Origin: Shouchella clausii
GTDB taxonomy: Bacteria; Bacillota; Bacilli; Bacillales; Bacillaceae_D
DNA length: 64,000 bases
Assembly (NCBI RefSeq): GCF_002250115.1
Contig: NZ_CP019985.1
Location: forward strand, 3,720,001-3,784,000
Direction of reading: 5' to 3'
This document shows positions 38,293-38,320 of this stretch, one piece after another. Numbering within the stretch: position 1 is the stretch's first letter; every line of letters begins with the position of its first letter. The notes under the pieces were generated by a model. It saw only the letters and a list, made by a program, of their open reading frames with translations, searched no databases and had not been told where the DNA came from. The translations under genes and the position numbers were made by a program.

Positions 38293-38320
38293 GGTTCCTG
38301 TAATGTATATTATGTAAACT
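38293..38320 (+). other. dif: Candidate chromosomal dif site (XerC/XerD recombination)
   Basis: Left arm GGTTCCTGTAA (38293-38303), centre TGTATA (38304-38309), right arm TTATGTAAACT (38310-38320): the 11-6-11 layout of dif. Against the B. subtilis dif as I remember it, 23 of 28 bases agree and the XerD arm is identical. Its location about 7.5 kb beyond parC fits the terminus. This is where XerC/XerD (CodV/RipX) would resolve chromosome dimers. Confidence 0.75.

Follow-up and report, generated by a model that had tools for sequence, protein, structure and literature searches.

A chromosomal dif site in Shouchella clausii and a conserved palindrome on its XerC side, together probably a composite accessory-protein site

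The window analysed here is a stretch of 64,000 nucleotides from the chromosome of Shouchella clausii (contig NZ_CP019985.1, forward-strand positions 3,720,001 to 3,784,000), and coordinates below are those of the window unless they are given in the contig. Its plus strand carries the genes for both subunits of topoisomerase IV, parE (subunit B, 26420..28390, over the TIGR01058 cut-off) and parC (subunit A, 28391..30814, over the TIGR01061 cut-off). Downstream of parC and on the same strand lies a 28-bp dif site, GGTTCCTGTAATGTATATTATGTAAACT, at 38293-38320, made up of an XerC arm (38293-38303), a central hexamer (38304-38309) and an XerD arm (38310-38320). It starts 7.5 kb past the end of parC, as the initial annotation had estimated, within a 0.6-kb intergenic stretch (37853-38471). 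That annotation also called the surroundings gene-poor and pseudogene-rich, which is overstated: a single remnant of a MerR regulator (38039..38200, plus strand, PF09278, 28.2 bits) lies in the intergenic gap, between a DUF1801 gene and the palindrome described next, but predicted genes are close on either side. On the XerC side of dif is a 37-bp palindrome, CGTCTCGAAACCTGAAGTAAACTTGTGATTCGAGACG, at 38235-38271, with arms at 38236-38241 and 38265-38270 and a core, AAGTAAACTT, at 38249-38258; we propose it as an accessory-protein site of dif. The 21-bp spacer between the two (38272-38292) falls into three length classes in relatives, and palindrome, spacer and dif together measure 86 bp. Two further XerD arms that have no XerC arm, TTATGTTAACT at 6960..6970 and TTATGTAAACT at 14072..14082, both on the plus strand, are candidate XerD-only sites. 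Elsewhere in the window, a 6-phospho-beta-glucosidase gene is broken into two ORFs (18951-20391), with a full-length paralogue adjoining at 20476-21924.

We compared the site with the B. subtilis-type dif found at two of our loci (L148 and L161), which we take to be the B. subtilis sequence itself. The two are identical at 23 of 28 positions, with mismatches at positions 1, 2, 8, 9 and 13 and an unchanged XerD arm, TTATGTAAACT, so the 11-6-11 layout, the degree of identity and the identical XerD arm that had been claimed are all borne out. The site also matches a dif consensus at 24 of 28 positions, and the E. coli dif at 22 of 28. It has the length, the two 11-bp arms, the 6-bp centre and the conserved XerD arm of a dif site. 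In 1.144 Mb of the same genome, searched on both strands, the runner-up match to the B. subtilis-type dif reached 19/28, and the pattern NNNNCCTNNAATNTATATTATGTAAACT, allowing up to three mismatches, had one match in the whole 4,517,459-bp single contig while its reversed control had none. By this pattern the chromosome has one copy. A stronger dif at a skew inflection somewhere else would have spoken against the site, but no second site turned up genome-wide (up to three mismatches), and the inflection falls here.

The position on the chromosome was measured relative to dnaA, which lies at 1,368,792-1,370,117 of the contig on the minus strand. It is 2.39 Mb from dif, so that dif is 52.9% of the way round the circle from it. 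We measured GC skew in 20-kb blocks, 40 at sampled stretches of the contig and three in the window. Across these 43 blocks it is below zero from the start of the contig up to the dnaA block, above zero between 1.47 and 3.74 Mb, and below zero once more from 3.76 Mb; that is, the inflection opposite the origin is at dif. Over 404 kb of contiguous DNA around the site, the cumulative skew has its maximum at 38212, 81 bp from dif, for purines, at 38417 for A-T, and at 30707, 7.6 kb off dif, for G-C. The motif GGGNAGGG switches polarity at dif in the same 404 kb, with 12 forward and 1 reverse copies on the left and 0 forward and 14 reverse on the right. The SpoIIIE recognition sequence GAGAAGGG occurs there 4 times forward and 2 times reverse to the left of dif and 1 and 8 times to the right, and it is sparse in the 43 blocks. 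The purine-skew peak, the distance from dnaA and the polarity flip thus uphold the earlier placement of the window at the terminus, and the skew, proposed with it as a check, has its inflection at dif both in the 43 blocks and, for purines, in the contiguous stretch. Both recombinases are encoded in the genome: the TIGR02225 and TIGR02224 models each score over their cut-offs, XerD with 401 bits (cut-off 329.6) and XerC with 348 bits (cut-off 335.15). The 28 bp at 38293-38320 are the chromosomal dif, a confirmation of the earlier reading that is, by itself, ordinary. Neither the palindrome nor the linkage of parC to dif across the order was part of that reading. During the search for dnaA we also observed five near-equal matches to the DnaA model (45.9-46 bits, in 256-aa frames, at contig positions 324202, 455689, 1838229, 2531767 and 3624716), which may represent the helper protein of an insertion sequence present in several copies.

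The neighbourhood of parEC and dif recurs in related genomes. Three Shouchella records have a ParC that is 99% identical to that of the window, and for a wider view we examined 150 genomes of the order, finding dif (pattern, up to three mismatches) in 121 and parC in 149. Both were present in 120 genomes, 24 of which had them split over contigs; for the remaining 96 we used the best dif match, with ties broken by order. In all 96, dif lies downstream of parC. The distance is at most 10 kb in 46 genomes, 20 kb in 68 and 50 kb in 83, with a maximum of 1.11 Mb, and the two are on the same strand in 68/68 cases within 20 kb and 78/83 within 50 kb. We compared this with citB (aconitase), which is an imperfect linkage control because it is often near parC itself: among the 71 genomes with all three on one contig, parC and dif are within 20 kb in 48, citB and dif in 7, and citB and parC in 38. 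Where citB is more than 50 kb from parC (20 genomes), parC and dif are still within 50 kb in 18.

Outside the order, linkage is mixed. The class sample held 139 genomes from outside the order, with parC over cut-off in 80; both parC and dif were found in 56 and on the same contig in 38, after omission of three genomes (G205, G271 and G284) with tied or weak dif matches. In family f61, which we guess to be Listeria-like, all seven genomes have the two within 4 kb on the same strand, and in f49, presumably Enterococcus-like, 5 of 7 have them no more than 10 kb apart, although in two of the five the match is weak and its strand ambiguous. The single f55 genome has a distance of 2.2 kb. Family f56, which we take to be Staphylococcus-like, shows 16-50 kb in 9/9 and f51 shows 76-91 kb in 4/4, with dif reversed in both, and in f50, f57, f67 and f76 parC and dif are unlinked (more than 100 kb apart).

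The palindrome was noticed by setting dif flanks side by side. On the XerC side of dif, amid T-rich DNA, it has the consensus TGTCTCA-N7-AAGTATACTT-N6-TGAGACA, and we scored it by its 22 fixed positions with a threshold of 15; the copy in the window scores 19. The 83 flanks scored, which were picked by dif and family and not by palindrome and which are related and so not independent, comprise the window, 22 parC loci, two sets of 20 dif regions of the order, and 20 regions mostly from other families of the class. The 22 parC loci come from a set of 71, of which 30 had a best dif score of at least 20; eight that looked unlike dif were omitted, although one of them (L095) later proved to be dif. 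We found that 63 of the 83 flanks reached 15, including 56 of 62 from Bacillales (named loci being assigned by record title). Of the six other Bacillales flanks, the palindrome is absent beside dif in four (G004, G124, G126 and G035) and degenerate in one (G105/L185), while in the sixth (L109) it is present with the core displaced by one base and has a reverse-strand score of 18. Among the 20 class flanks, 7 carry it (f61 3/3, f49 3/3, f57 1/1) and nine other families do not (0/13, with f56 at 0/3 and one flank, L175, of 56 bp only). It is also absent beside dif in the one Mollicutes relative (L110, 0/1). Its absence in some lineages means that dif can work without the palindrome there.

As a check on chance matches, we scored letter-shuffled 120-base flank stretches: 15 was reached in 7 of 1,660 and 16 never. 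With the core allowed two registers, 57 of the 83 flanks reach 16, compared with 3 of 1,980 shuffles, none of which reached 17; six Sporosarcina flanks and the f57 flank remain at 15. Thirteen of the 63 positive flanks score just 15-16, mostly through a degenerate right arm or a shifted part. The strongest positions are the GTCTC/GAGAC arms, and arm changes are partly symmetric: in 50 flanks, the outer arm pair is G-C in 35, A-T in 7 and mixed in 8, pair 3-33 has a one-sided change in 9, and pair 6-30 is G-C in three that form one lineage, the window and two strains of the S. clausii group. In the Sporosarcina flanks the right arm is degenerate and the spacing is retained. The palindrome adjoins the B. 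subtilis-type dif as well (L148 and L161). A search of Rfam over 37800-38800 with E values up to 1 returned no family. We also observed a dif with a changed outer XerD arm (for example TTATGACGGGG or TTATGACCACG) at L097, L099-L103, L111, L115, L123, L093 and L095, where the titles name Sporosarcina, Psychrobacillus and Bacillus sp. and the palindrome abuts dif directly; judged by its sequence, this is a clade-specific variant of dif.

The distance from the palindrome to dif is constrained. Measured from the palindrome start, it is 56-58 bp in 43 flanks, 47-48 bp in 6 and 38-39 bp in 14, with no values between among the 63 flanks, and the steps are approximately one helical turn. An alignment of 14 copies places its gaps in the spacer. 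In other words, a conserved sequence adjoins the core at a limited set of distances, in classes about 10 bp apart, as at cer and psi. The three classes are consistent with a protein on the palindrome that would touch the XerC-dif complex from a fixed face.

In the DNA that we scanned, the palindrome is also almost confined to dif. In 1.144 Mb of the 4.52-Mb S. clausii genome, on both strands, the sole match of at least 17 is the one at dif (19). Among the 71 parC loci (1.52 Mb), 16 places score at least 17 and 15 of them adjoin dif: 13 are forward at +57/58 or +39, two (L060 and L109) are on the other strand, and L089 is the exception, away from dif. Thirteen of these 16 loci had served for recognition of the motif, so the new ones are L093, L095 and the miss, L089. 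At L093 and L095 the palindrome exposed divergent dif sites, and it can thus aid in finding such sites.

A comparison with two S. clausii-group strains illustrates the conservation. The palindrome is identical at 33/37 and 34/37 positions, and the right flank of dif aligns at 93-95% (89-95% overall, for the right side and the DNA beyond about 370 bp). The approximately 370 bp to the left of the palindrome cannot be aligned at E 1e-5.

We searched for the composite site on mobile elements with a 131-bp query. Of 72,556 plasmid records, 48 match: in 25 the match spans palindrome and dif, and in 23 it is limited to dif. One plasmid (H30) has exactly the chromosomal sequence used as query. The phage collection of 50,697 records gave 7 matches, of which 3 span both parts. 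Among the copies fetched, 11 of 14 from plasmids and both from phages score 16-22 for the palindrome, which starts 56-58 bp from dif, and it is lacking beside dif in two Priestia and one Enterococcus plasmid copies (score 11-12). Because one plasmid copy (L209) is the same sequence as one phage copy (L219), the palindrome is carried by 12 of 15 distinct sequences. In 11 of the 13 positive copies the core lies one base to the left of its place in most chromosomes (N6/N7), and in the chromosomal register alone only 4 of 13 would reach 15. Two pattern scans of viral contigs, covering two registers, found no copy of the palindrome, and one dif-like viral contig was seen. The carriers (L205-L214, L218-L220) are two phages and a number of plasmids from Bacillus and other Bacillaceae; the plasmids fetched range from 72 to 807 kb in length. 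In a 5-kb view of four plasmids, the flanking genes mostly converge on the composite site. Three Bacillus plasmids encode an 89-aa protein without a Pfam match just upstream of it (L222 2194-2463, L223 2200-2469, L224 2109-2378). Genes next to the composite sites were considered as candidates for the binding protein and set aside: three encode these 89-aa proteins, one wHTH neighbour is Mrr_N, and one phage neighbour is a holin.

The two isolated XerD arms of the window raise a related matter. The exact arm, TTATGTHAACT, occurs 6 times in the S. clausii genome compared with 15 for the reversed control, and three of the six (6960, 14072 and dif) are on the plus strand of the window; two of the five non-dif arms of the genome are thus less than 32 kb from dif and on its strand, that is, XerD arms without XerC arms near the terminus. 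In 14 other complete genomes ATTATGTHAACT occurs 61 times, versus 66 for the control. The arm is therefore not enriched genome-wide, and only its placement near dif stands out. We collected 55 non-dif sites in 15 genomes (50 in the 14 and, by the 11-letter pattern, 5 in S. clausii), and 12 of them lie within 50 kb of dif, where 1.3 would be expected if they were uniform. All 12 point to dif (10/10 when S. clausii is excluded), and the direction is towards dif in 38/41 within 600 kb and 7/14 beyond. For the reversed pattern in the 14 genomes, 2/66 lie within 50 kb, and 17/29 within 600 kb and 17/37 beyond point towards dif. Clustering is better supported than polarity, because within 300 kb the control also points to dif in 11/13. 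The 71 parC loci contain the arm 25 times forward (8 being dif copies) and 3 times reverse, while 300 permuted arms gave a mean total of 6.0 with none reaching 28, and the reversed arm gave 4 and 12.

These XerD-only sites may be counterparts of the B. subtilis sites, likewise near the terminus, at which XerD unloads SMC. The XerD-dependent unloading sites are those of Karaboja et al. 2021, as cited in PMC10945525, PMC13220808, PMC13342612, PMC12322038 and PMC8357415. Satellite XerD arms were also seen 312-353 bp from dif on the XerC side in five regions (G082, G100, G101, L106 and L118) and, being missing from the window, are not general. In other Shouchella loci and in Bacillus sp. JCM 19041 (L060, L062 and L105), parC is preceded at about 7.3 kb by a palindromic site of XerD-XerD-like form. 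Together, the parEC-dif linkage and the XerD-only sites suggest selection on a terminus neighbourhood in which dif is joined by the topoisomerase IV genes and by possible SMC-unloading sites.

Other explanations of these observations must be weighed. The palindrome could itself be a further XerD or XerC site, one of the set of XerD sites near dif, since its core resembles two overlapping XerD arms (TTAAGTATACT versus TTATGTAAACT, 9/11 by eye) and XerD-only arms cluster there. We consider this unlikely: in Sporosarcina the XerD arm of dif is altered (TTATGACGGGG) while the core is not, and by eye the GTCTC/GAGAC arms resemble neither Xer arm. Alternatively, an inverted repeat followed by T-rich DNA immediately before dif might be an intrinsic terminator, which would keep transcription from running into dif and would have no role in recombination. 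The palindrome RNA does fold at -15 kcal/mol, but with a z of -1.3 and 27 of 200 shuffles as good, and a terminator scan of 37100-39200 found nothing at the palindrome. Furthermore, T-rich DNA lies on both sides of the palindrome in relatives, the two arms of the Sporosarcina copies do not pair with each other, and a terminator requires neither spacing by helical turns nor a conserved internal AAGTATACTT, all of which makes this explanation very unlikely.

Inherited gene order without function could in principle account for both the palindrome and the parEC linkage, given that gene order near the terminus is common to related genomes and that citB is often near parC. Against this, the parC-dif linkage persists in most of the genomes where citB is distant, plasmids retain the palindrome, and in the two S. 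clausii-group strains it is conserved next to left-hand DNA that cannot be aligned, so we regard gene order alone as quite unlikely. Finally, because the same composite site is found on Bacillus plasmids and phages, the dif-like site might derive from a mobile element that uses Xer, as its attachment site or as a scar left by it, and not be the native dif. This is scarcely credible for a site that lies at the skew peak and downstream of parEC as in relatives, that has a single copy genome-wide within three mismatches of the pattern, and whose nearest tyrosine-recombinase (PF00589) match is xerD itself, 199 kb away.

We therefore favor, with a probability of roughly 0.8, the reading that the window contains the chromosomal dif and that here, as in most Bacillales flanks, dif is the right part of a composite accessory-protein site. 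The palindrome is strongly supported as a conserved element; it reads as a protein site on DNA, and we infer its function as follows. XerC (CodV) and XerD (RipX) would resolve chromosome dimers at dif, at the replication terminus. A DNA-binding protein would occupy the palindrome from a side of the helix that is constant with respect to XerC. It would help the XerCD reaction at the stage of synapsis or activation, or in its selectivity or its capture by translocases, a role that would be analogous to that of the accessory proteins at plasmid sites such as cer. More tentatively, and at somewhat less than even odds, the dif of Bacillales, f61 and f49 may in general be a composite with an accessory palindrome, bound in helical phase on the XerC side by one widely conserved protein, with plasmids and phages sharing the control.

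If this broader proposal is true, the protein on the palindrome would take the activating or selecting role of the E. coli FtsK gamma domain, large plasmids and phages would carry the composite site for the same control, and the control of dif recombination would be explained in bacteria whose translocases have no known contact with the recombinases. For B. subtilis, PMC5357621 states that CodV and RipX receive no direct activation from SftA or SpoIIIE, that evidence for a direct interaction is so far lacking, and that the way in which the two translocases activate recombination is an open question. The phased element on the XerC side would offer a concrete handle on CodV/RipX activation in that species. 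Titles and abstracts contained no report of a palindrome beside a Firmicutes dif or of parEC-dif linkage, a scope outside which Sciochetti 2001 and Karaboja 2021 fall. We regard the novelty of the palindrome as provisional.

One close known arrangement is that of plasmid resolution sites. ColE1 cer uses the accessory proteins ArgR and PepA, and in both cer and psi the accessory stretch is on the XerC side. The palindrome has no evident likeness to an ArgR box. Cer-type sites and the composite dif have in common a protein-binding stretch that adjoins the core (predicted in the present case), but the composite site differs from cer in having the 6-bp centre of chromosomal dif and, on chromosomes, a single short palindrome. 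For proteobacteria, a 6-bp centre has been argued, in PMC2731167, to suggest that accessory elements are not needed.

Among chromosomal systems, a close one is that of B. subtilis, whose dif is reportedly the subject of Sciochetti et al. 2001. A description of that site is also found in PMC5357621. The B. subtilis and S. clausii sites share the 28-bp length, the 11-6-11 layout, the identical XerD arm, a position near the terminus and the CodV/RipX recombinases; they differ at five positions, two of which belong to the outer part of the XerC arm, with GG in place of AC. The difSL/XerS system of streptococci and lactococci, a variant Firmicutes dimer resolution site according to PMC2731167 and PMC3025954, uses one recombinase and a 31-bp site, whereas the S. 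clausii genome encodes both XerC and XerD.
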